IMG/VR virus record: IMGVR_UViG_3300005824_000045
Coordinates: 1-21,229 of that record
Reading direction: 5' to 3' (one strand)
DNA length: 21,229 nt
Origin: a virus
Shown: piece by piece, positions 2,155-21,210 of the stretch
Numbering within the stretch: the stretch's first letter is position 1
Layout of the letters: each line of letters opens with the position of its first letter
Notes under the pieces: model-generated
What the model was told of the DNA's origin: nothing
The model's database searches: none
The model's input: only the letters and a program-made list of their open reading frames with translations
Made by a program: the position numbers and the translations under genes

Positions 2155-2745
2155 ATGCTCAAGCCTGTACAGAAGTCAGCCGAGATCGAAGAAGTCCAGA
2201 AGGAGGAGCGAGCGTTCACCGTTGTCGCTTCCGACGAAACGGTCGACCGATACGGCGACATTGTCAGAGCTTCTGGTTGGGATTTGAAAGCCTTCAAGAA
2301 CAACCCCATTGCCTTGTTCGGCCACGACCATCGGAGTCCCATCGGGACGGTTCCCGAGGTCGAGGTCAAGAACAAGCAGCTGCTCGCGAAGATGGTCTTG
2401 GCTCCGGAAGGAACCGACCCGTTCATCGACAAGCTCTGGCGCTTGATCGAGGCAAACGTCCTTCGCGCCGTCTCCGTCGGCTTCATGCCGACCGTCCAGC
2501 CCAAGATGATCCGCGACGAAGAGAACGACCGCATCATCGGCTTCGACTACGATGGCCAAGAGCTGCTCGAACTCTCCCTCGTTACTGTACCGGCGAACCC
2601 AGCAGCATTGGCGGTCGCGCGGTCTCTCTCCTTTGACGACGCTTCCACGCGTCGCATCTTCGACTTCGGCGACCGACTCCGCAAGGCGAAGCTAATGAAC
2701 TGCGAACTCAATTTGGCAGTCGCCGAGAGTCCGCACGCCCAGTAG
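2155..2745 (+). CDS. HK97-type prohead protease
   Basis: This is the maturation serine protease that cleaves capsid N-terminal segments inside the prohead and then itself. Seen in the 196-residue protein are an N-terminal 'VASDETVDRYGDIV', the His motif 'ALFGHDH' (H57/H59), the Ser motif 'LRAVSVGF' (S107) and 'ELLELSLVTVPANP', which together form the signature of the S78/U35 family. The ATG at 2155 was chosen because GGAG at 2143-2146 lies 8 nt before it. The in-frame ATG at 2116 would add 13 residues but has no good ribosome binding site. It sits directly before the capsid gene, as usual. The C-terminal 25 residues look variable and may be removed on maturation. Confidence 0.93.
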   Translation: MLKPVQKSAEIEEVQKEERAFTVVASDETVDRYGDIVRASGWDLKAFKNNPIALFGHDHRSPIGTVPEVEVKNKQLLAKMVLAPEGTDPFIDKLWRLIEANVLRAVSVGFMPTVQPKMIRDEENDRIIGFDYDGQELLELSLVTVPANPAALAVARSLSFDDASTRRIFDFGDRLRKAKLMNCELNLAVAESPHAQ

Positions 2746-2791
2746 GGCAGACCGCAGCAAGTCCCTTTTCCTATTGGATGGAGTACACGAC

Positions 2792-4162
2792 ATGAACGAA
2801 GCAATCCAACGCCTGATGGCACAACTCGGCGACTTCCGCGCGAAGGCCGAAGTCATCAAAGGCTTCCTCAACGATCGCGATTTGACCGACGCTGAGGACA
2901 AAGAATTCGCCGAAGTGCTTGGCGAGATTCGCAAGATCAACGGCCGCATCGAGCAGCTCCGTCAAGCCGAGCTTCTGCTGGTTGACAAGTCCGTAATCCT
3001 CCCGACTCCGGCAGGCGTACAGACTCCTGTCTCCGACATCGTCGAGGACGCGAAGCTGGACAAAGGCGTCGCGATGGCTCGCGCTCTGCGTTGCTTGCTA
3101 CAGGCGAAAGGCTCCTTGGCTCTGGCTGGCGAGATCGCTGAGCAGTTCTGCAGCGACACTCCGTCGATGGCCAAGATGTTCAAGGGCCAAGCGATGGGCC
3201 TCCTGCCGAAGTTCGGCGAAGAGAAAGCCGCGGTCGCCGCAGCCACTACAACCGGCGCCACTTGGGCCGCTCCTCTGATCTGGCAAACCAACCTCGTCTC
3301 CGAGTTTGTCGGTCTGCTGTATCCGAAGACCATACTGGGCAACATGACCGGCTTCACCGAAGTCCCGTTCAACGTCTCGATCCCGCGCATGACCGGCGGC
3401 GTTACCGGCGGTTGGGTTGGGGAAGGCGGCTGGAAGCCAGTTAGCGCCGGAGCGTTTGATCGGATCGAGCTGAAGTGGAACAAGCTCGCTGTGATCGTGG
3501 TCTTCACCGATGAGATGCTGCGCTGGTCAAGTCCCGCGATCGACGCTCTGATGCGCGACAACATCGTCGAGGCGTTCGGCGAGATGGTTGACCAAACCTT
3601 CATCCTGTACACCGGAACCGCGAGCACGGCCAAGCCTGGCCCGATCAACGGCAACGGCGCAGGCGCGGCTCTTCAGGCAGTCCCTTCGACCGGCATCACG
3701 GTCGACTTCGTAACCGCGGATTTGAACTCCGCGATCGGCAACCTGACCGCGTCCGGTATTCCGATGCGCAACCCGTACTGGGTAATGTCGCAGCGGACGT
3801 ATCAGTCGCTGCTGACCCTGCCTGGGGTTAATGACGAGTACGCCTTCCGCGCCGAGATGTTGCAAGGTCGTCTGCTCGGTTATCCGTTCATCGCGTCGAC
3901 CTCCGTGCCGATCAACATGGGCGTCGGGACTGACGAGTCGTTCATCACGCTGCTGGATGCGTCGCAGTTCTTCCTCGCTCGTGAAGGCGTTTCGTTCGAC
4001 ATGAGCAACCAAGCGACGCTCGAGATGGATTCTGCGCCTTCCGGCCCAGCGACCGTTTCGATGTGGCAGACCAACATGACGGCGCTGAAAGGCGAGCAGT
4101 ACATCACTTGGCGCCGGAAGCGCGACACGATGGCCTCCACCATCACTGGCGTAGCCTACTGA
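2792..4162 (+). CDS. Major capsid protein (HK97 fold)
   Basis: This 456-residue protein forms the icosahedral shell. Residues 1 to about 62 are charged and helical ('KGFLNDRDLTDAEDKEF', 'KINGRIEQLRQAELL'), resembling the HK97 delta/scaffolding domain that the upstream protease removes. The core appears to start near 'AATTTGATWAAPLIWQ' (about residue 150) and continues with 'FTEVPFNVSIPRM', 'GGWVGEGGWKP' and 'VFTDEMLRWSS', a typical HK97-family path through N-arm, E-loop and P-domain. The start is the ATG at 2792, because GGATGGAG (2776-2783) lies 8 nt upstream; the TTG at 2774 lies next to that site and is unlikely. A strong terminator follows 7 nt after the stop. The exact cleavage site is not visible. 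Confidence 0.94.
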   Translation: MNEAIQRLMAQLGDFRAKAEVIKGFLNDRDLTDAEDKEFAEVLGEIRKINGRIEQLRQAELLLVDKSVILPTPAGVQTPVSDIVEDAKLDKGVAMARALRCLLQAKGSLALAGEIAEQFCSDTPSMAKMFKGQAMGLLPKFGEEKAAVAAATTTGATWAAPLIWQTNLVSEFVGLLYPKTILGNMTGFTEVPFNVSIPRMTGGVTGGWVGEGGWKPVSAGAFDRIELKWNKLAVIVVFTDEMLRWSSPAIDALMRDNIVEAFGEMVDQTFILYTGTASTAKPGPINGNGAGAALQAVPSTGITVDFVTADLNSAIGNLTASGIPMRNPYWVMSQRTYQSLLTLPGVNDEYAFRAEMLQGRLLGYPFIASTSVPINMGVGTDESFITLLDASQFFLAREGVSFDMSNQATLEMDSAPSGPATVSMWQTNMTALKGEQYITWRRKRDTMASTITGVAY

Positions 4163-16600: not shown

Positions 16601-17685
16601 CGACGCTGACTTGGCGCGATCCGCTCCCGAACGGGAACGTGGGCAACGACCAAATCATCGGTTACGACGTCCGTTGGGCGCCACAGGTCGACGCCTCCTT
16701 CACGACCGCGACTCGGATTGCTGACCTTGTTCCTTGGCCAGCATCGTCTCTCTCGGTTCCGACCCGCAACGGCGCATACCTTATCAAGCCATACACCTCG
16801 TCCGGCATTTACTCGGTCGAGGCGAAGCGAACCGTCATCCAGACCGAAGACATCCAGCGGATCGACTACTACACGACGCCGCGGTTCAACCCAGATTGGC
16901 AAGGGCAGCTCATCGATACGGAGATCGTCGGCGGAGAGCTTCGTCTCAAGCCGCTCGCAGACGGCAGCTATCCAGGCACCGGATATTTTATCGCGGCATA
17001 TCGGGAGGAGTTCAACCAAGTCCTCATCTGTCAGATCGCCGCACAGATGGCTGTGTACGGGTTTACGACCGGAGACGTCTTGGGTGGGCCGAAGTTCAAC
17101 CCGCTCGCGAACGCAACGCCGCTCGGCGCGGTCGGCGGCGCGAACAATTACGATGCGAAGCTGTGGGTGGCGAGTTCCGATCGGAGAGGAGAGACGCTGA
17201 GCGATTGGCAGCCCATCGCAATCGCCGATCCTCTTGCCGGTTCAACCGTCGATCTCAGCGCAGACGCTCGACCGATTATCAACGGGCAGTTCGAGGGGCA
17301 AGAGATTTGGTTCCTGATCGAGCTTCGGAGTTTCGACCTGCTGACGACTCCTTCGGTCGTTGTCGGCGGCGCAAACATCGACTTCCCAGAACGCGAGGAG
17401 AGCCTGAGCGATTATTTCGTCCCAGCAGGCGGAACTAGGATAACATTCAGTTATCCATTCGTGTACGCTCCTTCGGTCGCGGTCAGCCTACAGAACGCTG
17501 GAACGTATGACTTTGTCCGCAGAGGCGCGGTCGACCAATACGGGTTTGACATCGAGGTTCTCGCCGGAACCGCCAAGTCAATATTCAGCAATGGCTTCAG
17601 CGACGGCTTCTTCAAACAATCCGGCGAGCCGGTCGACGGCAGTGTCGATATTATCATCCAAGGCGTCGGGAGGGTTGTTGTATGA
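13621..17685 (+). CDS. Tail tip/central fibre protein: I-J-like fusion
   Basis: This 1354-residue protein is the tail-tip and host-specificity protein. Residues 16-75 look like the beta-grasp domain of lambda I ('GQIELVMPSGSNLQDIADAV'). A six-Gly stretch (76-81) and hydrophobic segments at about 84-106 and 111-136 follow, as in I-type proteins. The J-like part starts near 158 with 'STPYAAIPRVYGKHRLFPRL'. At about 643-738 is a phage-tail_3-like segment ('YGESQRMVYADGYDENTA', 'YMLAQGLLRREEFTIEVDIE'). Two FN3-like domains start near 866 ('QPPTNVRVVQNN') and 976. The end (1261-1354) is a beta-rich, H-lectin-like module. AAGGAG at 13608-13613 supports ATG 13621; the open frame to 13432 is a shadow of the NlpC/P60 gene. 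Confidence 0.93.
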   Translation: MANALIRPHPLSDRGQIELVMPSGSNLQDIADAVWAQDAQTCVVLTINGDIIPSKYWKQVRPKDGAMVRGTLTFAGGGGGGKKILALVAIIAIAVFAPYAAIAMGFTTTAGALTGLGYAVAAGISMVGNMLVNSLFKPAGVSAGSSGSSTDPKESQTYSITSQSNQSTPYAAIPRVYGKHRLFPRLAATPFVVSESGEQYLYMLLDFGFGPLSLSDLEIGDTPLLNYQEVSYRIHKEFVAGDRLSIYTSDVYVETIGSELQYNQPVIRVSAPESIKLGVDLAFPRGLVTYNDAGNRTPRSVSFDIQLRLEGSPTWIGYGAFPYTTSSNLTTTVTANDVLVDANVRMTEADEKPIYGLPKGTLTLTVKAGFVPTPSYTLVFPNGEAYSIASVAGNIITLAQPLSEDFFVGTTSSTTLSLPATATTSSASRLTVKASSAEPVFVSLSLSVPKGKYEISVNRVTADNTSSRTQDLAAFNSLRSSADRPPIAPRVPHTIMELRIKASEQLSGQIRTLSAIATAELASWDGTVWAKAPTRSPAAAFLDVLIGTANRRPMPASAVDLDSLQEWSEYCETIYQGEPLYLFDHVVDYNTTIYQLLNSIASAGRATLSWRDGKIGVIIDRNQTVPAQMFTPRNSWNMSSQRMYLETPHALRIAFVDPAIGYGESQRMVYADGYDENTATVFEDLKLFGVTRATQAWRDGRYMLAQGLLRREEFTIEVDIENLACIRGDLVWVQHDVLRVGGDSSRITDVISDTEFYQYDPLPNLAADEYGVRIRRSSDGSLVGPIKATASPPYGWVLDEPVERMQPDDLIVWGTLTKETGEYLVKNIQPGKDFTASMTMVEIARAIYSADTGPIPPYFPPQNGRPDGVLAQPPTNVRVVQNNKTIARRPAADIVLLWDTPDVGVYERYNTFTRGNDGSIISLGTYDDFRVVLAANEDLLTSDYVSQSFEFAVSSVDYTGGSSTLVWTTEEIYNPNYVPDAVDFLASNVQGEMTTLTWRDPLPNGNVGNDQIIGYDVRWAPQVDASFTTATRIADLVPWPASSLSVPTRNGAYLIKPYTSSGIYSVEAKRTVIQTEDIQRIDYYTTPRFNPDWQGQLIDTEIVGGELRLKPLADGSYPGTGYFIAAYREEFNQVLICQIAAQMAVYGFTTGDVLGGPKFNPLANATPLGAVGGANNYDAKLWVASSDRRGETLSDWQPIAIADPLAGSTVDLSADARPIINGQFEGQEIWFLIELRSFDLLTTPSVVVGGANIDFPEREESLSDYFVPAGGTRITFSYPFVYAPSVAVSLQNAGTYDFVRRGAVDQYGFDIEVLAGTAKSIFSNGFSDGFFKQSGEPVDGSVDIIIQGVGRVVV

Positions 17686-17909
17686 TTCCGTTAAGAATGA
17701 GCGTGAACTTTCATGTCGGGAGGACGCCGGTTATTAAGTTTGCTATGGGCGACGATCTCGGCAACGGCGTCTTCGTCGGGCGAGGGAACGCGCTGTTGAA
17801 GATGGACGACGGAGTACAGCTCACGTTGCCGGACGGAACCGTTTTGACTGGAGTACAATTACGCCAAGCGTTAGTCGCATTGGCCACCATCGCGGAGCAA
17901 ACCACATGA
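17682..17909 (+). CDS. Small protein between tip and fibre genes, 75 residues
   Basis: I do not recognise this protein. GGAGG at 17669-17673 lies 8 nt before ATG 17682, and both ends are ATGA overlaps, so it is very likely translated. It begins with beta-like sequence ('MSVNFHVGRTPVIKFAMGDD'), then 'MDDGVQLTLPDGTVLTGVQL', and ends in a short helix ('RQALVALATIAEQTT'). An in-frame ATG at 17697 is a less supported start. Its place between the tip protein and the fibre suggests an adaptor or fibre-attachment role, which is inference from position only. Confidence 0.75.
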   Translation: MIPLRMSVNFHVGRTPVIKFAMGDDLGNGVFVGRGNALLKMDDGVQLTLPDGTVLTGVQLRQALVALATIAEQTT

Positions 17910-19135
17910 GCCAGTATCAACTGCCCAACATCGATCCGGACGTAAACACCGGCACGCAACTTTCCCAATGGCTGAACCTTTGGGCAAACGCTCTTGAGAC
18001 GACGCAGATTGGACCGACTCGTCCGGTCGGCGTCTCTGCTGGCTTCCTGTGGATCGAAGACGTCAGCCCGACGCTATGGAACATGAAGGTGTTCGACGGC
18101 GTTCAGGACATCACCATCGCGAGCATGAACCCAAGTACCGGCCAGCCAATCGTCGGCGGTCTCGGAACCGCGGCATATGCCGACCTGATGGAGACGTTGT
18201 TCGACGCGACACCTGGCGCGGTAATGACGACCGGCGCATTTGGTCTCGCAGGCAACGCGCTCAACACGACGAACTACGACACGCTGTCGGCCTCCGGATT
18301 TTATTACAACGCAGCCGCATCGACTTCCGGCGCTCCATCGGCCGCGGCCAACTTCCGCGTCTTCCACCACAACATCAGCGCCAACGAGGCGTCGCAGATC
18401 GCCGTCCTCGGTCTCCTTTCTTACTCGAGGAGCAAGGCGGCTGGGACGTGGGGCGCGTGGGTAACGAATTGGAACTCAAGCAACCTCGTCAAGCAGACGT
18501 CTTCTTCCGACGGCGCGGTCGGTCGCGCTCTCTTGACAGGCGCGTTCGGGATCGGCGGCAGCGTCATTGCGAGTGCCGACGCCAACGCGATCGGCTTTGG
18601 CGGTTTGTACGGAGTAACCGCGGGAACCGCGAACATTCCGGTTGGGCAGGCTGGGGCGATCATCAGCTGCGTCTCGGGAACCTCCGCGGCAACGCAGCTG
18701 TACGTCGCCGACGTCGACTCCGCGATGTACGTCCGGTCGAAGGCCGCGAACGTATGGGGCGCATGGAAGACCGTCTCGCTCAGCGGAGGCAATCCACAAG
18801 TCAACAACACGCTCGACAAATGGATAAACAAGGGGAGCGTTACCGGCTCCGCGGCCGTCAACCCGCTGGATGGCGGCGCGCAATCAGCAGCGATGATCGG
18901 CGACACCTCGTTCACCTTCACGACCGCGGGCATCCCTTCGGGCTATTCGTGCGTGATGACGCTACAGCTGTATGGCGGGTTTGTGCCGACCTTTCCGGCC
19001 GGCATTAGCTGGCCAGACGCAACGGTGCCTGCTTACGACACAGCAGCAACCTACACGTTCGAGTTCGTAAACAAATCCGGAACGGTTAGTGTTTCCGGCT
19101 TCCAATCCGGAAACAAGATGGGAGTCCCAGCATGA
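17906..19135 (+). CDS. Tail fibre with two pyocin-knob-like repeats
   Basis: This 409-residue protein opens with a likely attachment region ('NTGTQLSQWLNLWANALETT', 'GFLWIEDVSPTLWNMKVFDG'). It then shows two similar domains at about residues 110-187 and 211-288, each beginning 'GAFGLAGNA'/'GAFGIGGSV', with a 'SGFYY'/'FGGLYG' turn, and ending 'YSRSKAAGTWGAW'/'YVRSKAANVWGAW'. This is the pattern of pyocin-knob modules in phage and tailocin fibres. The C-terminus (from about 300) is beta-rich. GCGGAG at 17891-17896 lies 9 nt before ATG 17906. It is probably a trimeric fibre contacting the cell surface; whether it binds a receptor or carries the following protein is not visible. Confidence 0.82.
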   Translation: MSQYQLPNIDPDVNTGTQLSQWLNLWANALETTQIGPTRPVGVSAGFLWIEDVSPTLWNMKVFDGVQDITIASMNPSTGQPIVGGLGTAAYADLMETLFDATPGAVMTTGAFGLAGNALNTTNYDTLSASGFYYNAAASTSGAPSAAANFRVFHHNISANEASQIAVLGLLSYSRSKAAGTWGAWVTNWNSSNLVKQTSSSDGAVGRALLTGAFGIGGSVIASADANAIGFGGLYGVTAGTANIPVGQAGAIISCVSGTSAATQLYVADVDSAMYVRSKAANVWGAWKTVSLSGGNPQVNNTLDKWINKGSVTGSAAVNPLDGGAQSAAMIGDTSFTFTTAGIPSGYSCVMTLQLYGGFVPTFPAGISWPDATVPAYDTAATYTFEFVNKSGTVSVSGFQSGNKMGVPA

Positions 19136-20136
19136 GTCGGAGAGCGATGTTAATGGCCGCAGCCGGATCGGGCGGCGGTGGGGGCGGCGGATCGGGCGGC
19201 AGCATTTGCAAATACGGGGTCGCGGCCAACGCGCTGAAATTGTTTTCCGGTCTATCCATGACACAGCTCCCAGCTCTAAACGGTACGATGCCAGTAGTGG
19301 CTCTTGATCCGTTGGGCAAGATCGTTATCGGCGCGGCAGCACAACTTCTTTACGTTTGGACGTTCAACGGAACCGGCTGGACGCGACAAACTTTCCCTTA
19401 CACCAACAGCGCTTGGCAAGGCGTATTCCACGGCAAGTTCAGCGGCGATGGTCAGACCCTGTTCATGGGAGCAGCGACGGACGCTTATGCCGACATTTGG
19501 ACGTCCTTCAAGCGTGTGGGCGATAACTTCTTCGAGTCGGAGAAGCTGATTTCGCCCACCAGAATATTCCAGTGCGTTCCGTCGTTCGACGGCAATACGG
19601 TGCTGCTTGATAGCGTCTTAAACCCAGTTACGTTCCGCGAGTACAACTTCAACGGGTCGAGCTGGACGCAGGGCATCGCGGTCGGTAACGGGCCTGCCGA
19701 TACGGCTATCGTTTCGCCCACCCTCGGTTTTAACACGGTAAACGGCAGCTTGTACGACCGCGTGCTTGGCGTCAATTCTTGGGTTCCGACGGGCGCAGGA
19801 CTTCCGACGCCGTCGTCGGGGTGGGTGATTGTGCCGACGGGCAGCGACAACGCATTCAAAGGCGCGTCGATAAATTCGTCGTGGAACCAGATCACGTTCC
19901 TCGTCGGCAGCGCGACCGGCGGCGGTTCCGAAACGGGCGACACGGTGGTGTTGTCTCCACCATTGGATACCTTCAACGCAATGACGTGTGGGCCGACCGG
20001 AGAGATCGCGGTAAACCGCTTTTTCTTCTATGACACCGGAGCAGCATTCCCCGTTGCGCTGTTGGGCAACGCAACCAGCGTCAGCGTCACGCCGAACGCC
20101 GGAGATGCGCTCATTTATGGCGGTGATTATTTATGA
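19132..20136 (+). CDS. Probable receptor-binding protein: Gly-rich linker plus propeller-like domain
   Basis: This 334-residue protein has a short basic N-terminus, a Gly/Ser linker at residues 12-23, and then repeating units of about 45 residues in which a 'DG/G' turn and hydrophobic strand are followed by a Trp-containing strand. Examples are 'LDPLGKIVIGAAAQLLYVWT', 'FSGDGQTLFMGAA', 'PSFDGNTVLLDSV' and 'EYNFNGSSWTQG'. This suggests a beta-propeller, although no named family was recognised. The linker and the place after the fibre gene suggest a distal fibre subunit or receptor-binding protein. GGGAG at 19120-19124 lies 7 nt before ATG 19132, which overlaps the fibre stop (ATGA). Val GTG codons look more frequent than in the upstream tail genes. 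Confidence 0.75.
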   Translation: MSRRAMLMAAAGSGGGGGGGSGGSICKYGVAANALKLFSGLSMTQLPALNGTMPVVALDPLGKIVIGAAAQLLYVWTFNGTGWTRQTFPYTNSAWQGVFHGKFSGDGQTLFMGAATDAYADIWTSFKRVGDNFFESEKLISPTRIFQCVPSFDGNTVLLDSVLNPVTFREYNFNGSSWTQGIAVGNGPADTAIVSPTLGFNTVNGSLYDRVLGVNSWVPTGAGLPTPSSGWVIVPTGSDNAFKGASINSSWNQITFLVGSATGGGSETGDTVVLSPPLDTFNAMTCGPTGEIAVNRFFFYDTGAAFPVALLGNATSVSVTPNAGDALIYGGDYL

Positions 20137-20321
20137 TTTACGCCGTCATGTTTTCGCTGGTGTTTTTGGCTGGCTGTTCCAGCGGCTATACCCGCGACGG
20201 TGTGACGGTGGTGACTTATTGCTTGCTCGGTGGATCTTACATCGACGATACGAAAACCACTCTCAACCACGAAACAGCCCCGCAGCAATGCGACTCAATC
20301 CAGAAGGAGAAACACCCATGA
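20133..20321 (+). CDS. Small outer-membrane lipoprotein
   Basis: This 62-residue protein starts with a hydrophobic segment and a good lipobox, 'MFSLVFLAGC', so Cys15 would be lipidated by the host. Residues after the Cys are Ser-Ser, which by the +2 rule favours the outer membrane. The mature part is about 48 residues with two more Cys (C30, C53) that could form a disulfide, and ends in a charged tail. ATGA overlaps join it to the genes on both sides; its own Shine-Dalgarno is weak. It lacks the Pro-richness of Rz1-type spanins. A superinfection-exclusion role, as for phage T5 Llp, is possible from its class and position, but the sequence does not prove it. Confidence 0.8.
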   Translation: MIYAVMFSLVFLAGCSSGYTRDGVTVVTYCLLGGSYIDDTKTTLNHETAPQQCDSIQKEKHP

Positions 20322-20920
20322 AGAAGTTAATCGCATTAACCGCGCTGATGATCGTCTCGACGTTCGCTTTCAGTTCGCAAGGCGACGACGGTTGCGTCGG
20401 CAATTGTTCCGGCTCCTCGCCGACGACGATCGAACAATGGCAGGCCAACATCCAAGCCCAGCAGCAGAAGCAGCAGCAAACCGCTACCGCAGACAGTCGC
20501 TCCGACAGTCGCTCCACGTCAGTGTCTGGCAGCGTCAGCAACGCAACGGGAGGTAGCGCGGACAACTCGGTCGTCGTCGACGCCTCGAGCGACTACAACG
20601 GCCCCAAGGCTTCCTCCGCGGCGAGCGTAGTGGTTGGAAACTGTCAGAGCGGAGGCTCGGGACAGACGCAGTCCGGCGGTCTCTCGACCGTGTTCGACTC
20701 GACCCAATGTCAGGCTCTCCGGCAAGTAACGGCCGAGCAGCAGCTGTACGTCTTTTACACGGAGATCGGCGACGCTGAGCAGGCCGCGGTTCATCTCGAG
20801 AATATGAAGAAGTTCAGCAAGCAAGCCGCCAACGCCGTCGATAACTCCGAAGTGACCAAGACGGTTGGTGGCGGCTTCCTCGATCTGATCCCAGTCGGCG
20901 TGATCGCCTTCCTGCTGTAG
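20318..20920 (+). CDS. Secreted/periplasmic protein of unknown function
   Basis: This 200-residue protein begins with a clear Sec-type signal ('MKKLIALTALMIVSTFAFSS'). The mature part holds four Cys (26, 30, 109, 131), a Gln-rich helix (about 39-55, 'NIQAQQQKQQQTATADS'), a Ser/Thr/Asn-rich region (56-120), a helical part 'CQALRQVTAEQQLYVFYTEI' with a following Ala/Lys helix, and a hydrophobic C-terminus 'FLDLIPVGVIAFLL'. AAGGAG at 20304-20309 lies 8 nt before ATG 20318; the frame is open back to 20030, but only as a shadow of upstream genes. It overlaps the lipoprotein stop by ATGA. I cannot name a family; the protein may act in the periplasm or at the envelope, possibly with the lipoprotein. 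Confidence 0.8.
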   Translation: MKKLIALTALMIVSTFAFSSQGDDGCVGNCSGSSPTTIEQWQANIQAQQQKQQQTATADSRSDSRSTSVSGSVSNATGGSADNSVVVDASSDYNGPKASSAASVVVGNCQSGGSGQTQSGGLSTVFDSTQCQALRQVTAEQQLYVFYTEIGDAEQAAVHLENMKKFSKQAANAVDNSEVTKTVGGGFLDLIPVGVIAFLL

Positions 20921-20924
20921 TAAA

Positions 20925-20951
20925 AGGAACGGCCCATTGCGGGCCGTTCTT
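20925..20951. terminator. Two-way terminator between convergent genes
   Basis: A stem of nine perfect pairs (GAACGGCCC / GGGCCGTTC), extended by a G-T and an A-T pair, has a 5-nt loop ATTGC. On the + strand it is followed by CTTGTT, and on the minus strand by CCTTTTAC. It lies just after the last structural gene and 2 nt from the minus-strand stop, so it can end transcription from both sides. Confidence 0.85.
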
Positions 20952-20952
20952 G

Positions 20953-21210
20953 TTAGGCGCGAGTTATCCGTCGTCCGTCGACGAGGAACTCGGCATAGTC
21001 GCCGTCCGGCATCAGAAGACAGCAGACGCGGACGTTGAGCGGCATATCAAAGGCCGCGGTTCCCGCGCTCGCCGTTCGGTCGATAACCGGAATGTCCAGA
21101 ACGTCAACCACGTACATCTTCGCGCCTTCTTCCGGAAGACTCATGGGGCGAAGCTGCTCGCACTTCCATTTCACTTCGTCGCCGTGGACGAACTTCTCGA
21201 GACGGCTCAT
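20953..21210 (-). CDS. Small protein on the opposite strand, possibly continuing past the window edge
   Basis: This 85-residue frame faces the structural block. From ATG it reads 'MSRLEKFVHGDEVKWKCEQL', then 'GAKMYVVDVLDIPVIDRTAS' and ends 'MPDGDYAEFLVDGRRITRA'. The arrangement 'F..GDeVkWk......KMyVvdV' loosely recalls small single-domain DUF2158-like proteins, a weak match. The frame stays open upstream (about six codons) to the window edge, and no Shine-Dalgarno is at a good distance, so the true start may be beyond the window. It probably belongs to another transcription unit, such as early or replication genes. It is a real gene candidate because a terminator serves its 3' end. Confidence 0.62.
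   Translation of the reverse strand: MSRLEKFVHGDEVKWKCEQLRPMSLPEEGAKMYVVDVLDIPVIDRTASAGTAAFDMPLNVRVCCLLMPDGDYAEFLVDGRRITRA

Follow-up and report, generated by a model that had tools for sequence, protein, structure and literature searches.

The window analyzed here, meaning the whole stretch of DNA under study, is the 21,229-base virus record IMGVR_UViG_3300005824_000045, in which the genes run from the terminase to the tail on the plus strand. The anchor of the region of interest is a J-like central tail-tip protein, which matched PHROG 31 (central tail fiber J, E 4e-106) and the Pfam entries FNIII-A_GpJ and Phage-tail_3. The 3′ end of the operon comprises, after J, a 75-aa protein, a tail fiber, a Gly-linked candidate tip protein, a small lipoprotein, and a secreted 200-aa protein; beyond it lie a hairpin and a convergent gene (Table 1). 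The fiber carries repeated WGAW-containing segments and matches PHROG 18794 and PHROG 30316. Four-base (ATGA) overlaps occur at 8 of the 22 gene junctions in the window, and each of the five junctions between J and the operon's last gene has one, so the overlap at the tip/lipoprotein junction is nothing special here. The large terminase (513-2096) is 49% identical to that of lambdoid coliphages such as HK75 and mEp390, while the J protein is nearest to those of phages of Rhizobium and Bradyrhizobium, which indicates a mosaic genome.

Table 1. Features at the 3′ end of the tail operon and its right border.
Feature	Position	Strand	Basis or remark
J-like central tail-tip protein (anchor), 1354 aa	13621..17685	+	PHROG 31, Pfam
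75-aa protein, ATGA-joined to both J and fiber	17682..17909	+	Family search without match
Tail fiber, 409 aa	17906..19135	+	36% identical to the L100 fiber over its length
Candidate receptor-binding (tip) protein, Gly-linked, 334 aa	19132..20136	+	Body without known relatives
Tag MSRRAM and Gly/Ser linker, proposed docking peptide	19132..19200	+	Common to L100 and L111
GCGGTGA, possible Shine-Dalgarno within the 3′ end of the tip gene, 6 bases ahead of the lipoprotein ATG	20120..20126	+	Sequence; inference
Lipoprotein precursor, 62 aa, MIYAVMFSLVFLAGC...	20133..20321	+	Predicted mature 48 aa, Cys 1, 16, 39
Lipobox LAGC	20166..20177	+	Sequence
AAGGAG, ribosome-binding site of the third gene, within the end of the lipoprotein gene	20304..20309	+	Sequence
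Secreted protein, 200 aa, ATGA-joined to the lipoprotein	20318..20920	+	N-terminal signal peptide, GDDGCVGNC motif
Hairpin GAACGGCCC...GGGCCGTTC, probable terminator between convergent operons	20927..20949	.	Hairpin at the equivalent place in L100
Convergent gene, 85 aa, right border of the variable slot	20953..21210	-	Conserved in L100, 43% identical

The tip protein begins with MSRRAMLMAAAGSGGGGGGGSGG, and its TGA stop codon forms the ATGA overlap with the ATG of the lipoprotein gene. A preliminary description of this DNA had placed both genes at the same coordinates and noted the Gly linker and the overlap, all of which are seen in the sequence; it had also called the tip propeller-like, a fold that we treat as a possibility. 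The tip protein gave no family match and no PDB match, the AlphaFold2 single-sequence model (pLDDT 33) was unusable, and its internal repeat similarity is weak, being reached by 8 of 300 shuffles. No relatives of the protein were detectable in the phage collection or in the viral contigs. The one part of it seen elsewhere is its start, MSRRAM(L/M) followed by poly-Gly, which is common to the window and two further loci, L100 (the closest relative found, described below) and L111. The corresponding DNA pattern was absent from 398 genomes of one phylum and occurred at 10 loci in the viral contigs, where only L110, on the contig of L100, and L111 were genuine. The remaining eight were set aside as chance, mostly representing one repeated unrelated sequence. 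At L111, the start reads MSRRAMM and poly-Gly and precedes a 463-aa three-repeat body (2744-4135 in oriented coordinates, reverse strand), accompanied by a different fiber; the tag thus seems common to unlike phages.

The 62-aa product of the next gene had been described beforehand as a small lipoprotein with outer-membrane sorting residues, and its N-terminus agrees with this. An uncharged stretch leads into a lipobox (FSLVFLAGC) with Cys15, well inside the first ~35 residues as in bacterial lipoproteins, and Ser-Ser follows at positions +2/+3. With both strands of the window considered, no other ORF of 40 aa or more has a lipobox. When its bases were shuffled with dinucleotides preserved, 10% of the shuffles kept the frame open, and 0 of 20,000 combined an open frame with a lipobox. 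The ATG is the only possible start in its frame, and both ends of the ORF lie exactly on ATGA overlaps. The signal peptide is short. A positive residue (Lys or Arg) is expected early in bacterial lipoprotein signal peptides, and the first seven residues here (MIYAVMF) have none. No homologue was found in the 50,697 phages, 72,556 plasmids, or viral contigs searched. Weak matches to an Rz-like spanin, YgdI/YgdR, and PHROG 15961 were discarded, as they covered little beyond the signal peptide, and a 30% match at L107, on the L091 contig, was read as chance because it sits within a 328-aa open frame.

The third gene encodes a low-complexity protein with a Gln/Ser-rich middle and a hydrophobic C-terminal end. 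A protein on another phage contig (L002, 5962-6804), not near tail genes, shares its N-terminal motif (..GDDGCVGNC.., 48% over 29 aa); it is likewise secreted and otherwise different. The preliminary description had proposed a cassette of two genes, the tip protein and the lipoprotein. These do adjoin, but the third ORF is joined by an ATGA overlap like the others, and the unit is thus one of three genes.

Codon usage sets these genes apart from the tail genes before them. GTG makes up 8 of 26 valine codons in the tip gene and 4 of 5 in the lipoprotein gene, a combined 12 of 31, compared with 24 of 232 over the tape-measure-to-fiber genes (Fisher p = 1.6e-4), which bears out a richness in GTG that had been remarked on earlier. 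The share is also raised in the third gene (5 of 19). Across synonymous codons generally, usage in the tip and lipoprotein genes together deviates beyond that of all 113 structural-gene stretches of equal length.

The closest relative, IMGVR_UViG_3300049855_000064 (L100), was found via an alignment of near J relatives, and its J is 57% identical over the full length. It shows the gene order of the window: J, a protein of ~74 aa (73 aa in L100), fiber, MSRRAM-Gly tip protein, small lipoprotein, hairpin, and convergent gene. The flanks, represented by the fiber and the convergent gene, are conserved (Table 1). Between the two tip proteins, which start with MSRRAMMTAGGGGG in L100 and MSRRAMLMAAAGSGGGGGGG in the window, BLASTP aligns the first nine residues only; conservation ends behind the tag and restarts at the next gene beyond the operon. 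Unlike in the window, the L100 tip gene is followed by a 181-aa PHROG 4998 protein, in place of the secreted 200-aa one, and then by the small lipoprotein (MRNLLLLVALTLVGCTAIY..., 16827-17063) and the hairpin. This lipoprotein has its own ribosome-binding site, no extra cysteine, and a low-complexity look, and it showed no homology to the lipoprotein or to the third gene of the window. The lipoproteins of relatives, therefore, need not share a function. A second, larger lipoprotein (~145 aa) is encoded on the minus strand of L100 (17583-18065), near the start of the minus-strand genes; the window stops short of that position.

In this one pair, the tip body and the lipoprotein differ together while their flanks are conserved, and the opposite pattern, in which the lipoprotein would stay constant next to a tip that varies freely, did not appear. 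Exchange as one unit, as had been suggested, thus fits both the break in conservation, which resumes past the operon, and the atypical codon usage. We consider it well supported, at the level of sequence comparison, that positions 19132 to ~20925 represent an exchangeable cassette, in which the tag and the Gly linker are kept and the tip body and all later genes are replaced between relatives up to the convergent gene.

Among 90 J-bearing loci, we noted 16 lipobox ORFs on the same strand within 6 kb downstream of J, of which at least one (L015) is spanin-like by context, several more look so from their sequence, and a few probably arose by chance. At L097 and L098, where J is ~30% identical, the fiber genes end with a 65-aa lipoprotein bearing two further cysteines. 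No lipoprotein follows the 463-aa tagged protein of L111, and none is present at L009, where the downstream region is complete and tip/fiber genes occupy the equivalent slot. Tail genes that end with a small lipoprotein are hence recurrent, but not general, among these relatives. Two of the records, IMGVR_UViG_3300045944_000167 and IMGVR_UViG_3300045944_000276, hold two J-like loci each (L092/L095 and L096/L098), representing either two related phages or a joined assembly. A genome scan with the J alignment returned one distant prophage only.

A small lipoprotein next to a receptor-binding protein recalls the superinfection-exclusion systems of coliphages. In E. coli phages with tested receptors, receptor-binding loci and their cognate exclusion proteins lie just 3′ of gpJ, with alleles that match the receptor (PMC8594841). 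Llp attaches to FhuA on its periplasmic side and folds the outer loops of the receptor, such that pb5 cannot bind (PMC9586334), and Rtp45 does likewise at LptD through another conformational change (PMC12685063). Unrelated FhuA phages carry Cor-type loci immediately behind their tail genes, and near relatives that use other receptors lack them (PMC13164509). The window shares this arrangement, as its lipoprotein gene adjoins a candidate receptor-binding protein gene downstream of a J homologue.

The likeness differs in detail from system to system. The preliminary description had drawn the analogy with T5, and this holds for the layout, where the small lipoprotein gene (llp) likewise adjoins the gene of the receptor-binding protein pb5 (oad); however, the two are on opposite strands in T5, and Llp shows no detectable sequence similarity to the lipoprotein of the window. 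In the Rtp phage (LptD receptor), a lipoprotein and a receptor-binding protein of ~310 aa, Rtp45 and Rtp44, are encoded by overlapping neighbors just after J, as in the window, but there the lipoprotein gene precedes its partner, and both genes are oriented against J. The T1 locus similarly has two proteins and the Cor lipoprotein straight after J, although Cor is convergent and belongs to the same PHROG 1119 family as Llp. The PHROG 1119 profile recovered T1 Cor (3e-30) and T5 Llp (1e-19), and that of PHROG 4281 recovered Rtp45 (1e-32); the window lipoprotein gave no match to the former at E values up to 1 and none to the latter. In pairwise comparisons with Llp, Cor, and Rtp45, no score exceeded those of shuffles, and the likeness to Rtp45 is limited to CSSGxxxDG at the mature N-terminus, which is not significant (p 0.06-0.21). 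The mature proteins are near one another in size, with a predicted 48 aa in the window, 62 in Llp, 59 in Cor, and 57 in Rtp45, each with two further cysteines. The Cor/Llp family is marked by two such cysteines able to tie together the ends of the mature chain; in the window, the cysteines are placed and spaced differently (1, 16, and 39 of 48 in the window; 1, 11, and 58 of 62 in Llp; 1, 9, and 57 of 59 in Cor). The window lipoprotein may, therefore, work like these three proteins, but it falls outside their families by sequence.

We infer that the cassette from 19132 to ~20925 serves host recognition. The MSRRAM tag would dock the tip protein on the tail, with the flexible Gly linker behind it, and the body of the tip protein would bind the host surface. 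Less certainly, the lipoprotein, made from the same transcript as the tip protein, would receive its lipid and reach the outer membrane; there it may attach to the phage's own receptor from within the periplasm and close it to the tip protein. Such closure would prevent superinfection and keep progeny phages off cell debris, as do Llp at FhuA and Rtp45 at LptD. The secreted product of the third gene may help in this or act separately. Given that the layout of the window matches that of coliphage receptor-binding and exclusion loci, blocking of the phage's own receptor appears to be the best single explanation of the lipoprotein, one we hold tentatively and as falling a little short of probable.

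The lipoprotein and the third secreted protein may instead be cell-envelope morons, involved for example in lysogenic conversion or in protecting the envelope during infection, which the chance of exchange placed here and which do not act on the phage receptor. This would account for a lipoprotein unrelated to the known exclusion lipoproteins, for a third gene that is likewise secreted and has no assigned function, and for the different, low-complexity type of lipoprotein in L100. Chance placement fits less well with the fact that three lineages of this group (the window, L100, and L097/L098) each close their tail genes with a small lipoprotein, in a position typical of exclusion lipoproteins in phages with known receptors, and we regard this explanation as somewhat unlikely.

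Small size and a lipobox would also suit a lysis accessory such as an Rz1-like outer-membrane spanin subunit, and spanin-like lipoproteins lie 2-4 kb after J in several of the J-bearing relatives. Among named PHROG families, an Rz-like spanin matches the window lipoprotein best (E 0.09, signal peptide only), but T1 Cor matches that family better (0.022), also via its own signal peptide, and the match thus carries no information. A true spanin-like case, that of L015, overlaps a small membrane protein and follows a lysozyme, whereas no inner-membrane spanin, holin, or endolysin adjoins the lipoprotein in the window or in the L100 operon, which likewise ends at this point (both records being fragments). 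The mature lipoprotein, with two prolines in 48 residues, is also not proline-rich, and a role in lysis is, in our view, improbable. About as improbable is that the ORF is unlipidated or without a role, as a translated spacer coupling the tip gene to the third gene or as a small inner-membrane peptide, which would suit the uncharged N-terminus and the absence of homologues in the collections searched but not the shuffling result, the single possible start, the exact ATGA ends, or the possible Shine-Dalgarno sequence.

Should the lipoprotein block the receptor as proposed, an uncultivated phage group, with lipoprotein families unrelated to those of coliphages, would join the coliphages tested so far in coupling a receptor-binding protein to a lipoprotein that blocks its receptor. 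In that case, the lipoprotein could offer a lead on the receptor of a phage with no known host. A broader and, at present, unlikely generalization is that MSRRAM and poly-Gly form a standard plug of unlike phages, behind which receptor-binding bodies are swapped, often along with blocking lipoproteins of their own, which would form several new families, unrelated to one another and distinct from Cor, Llp, and Rtp45. Whatever the role of the lipoprotein, the sharp border behind the MSRRAM-Gly tag marks a point of exchange of the tip protein.
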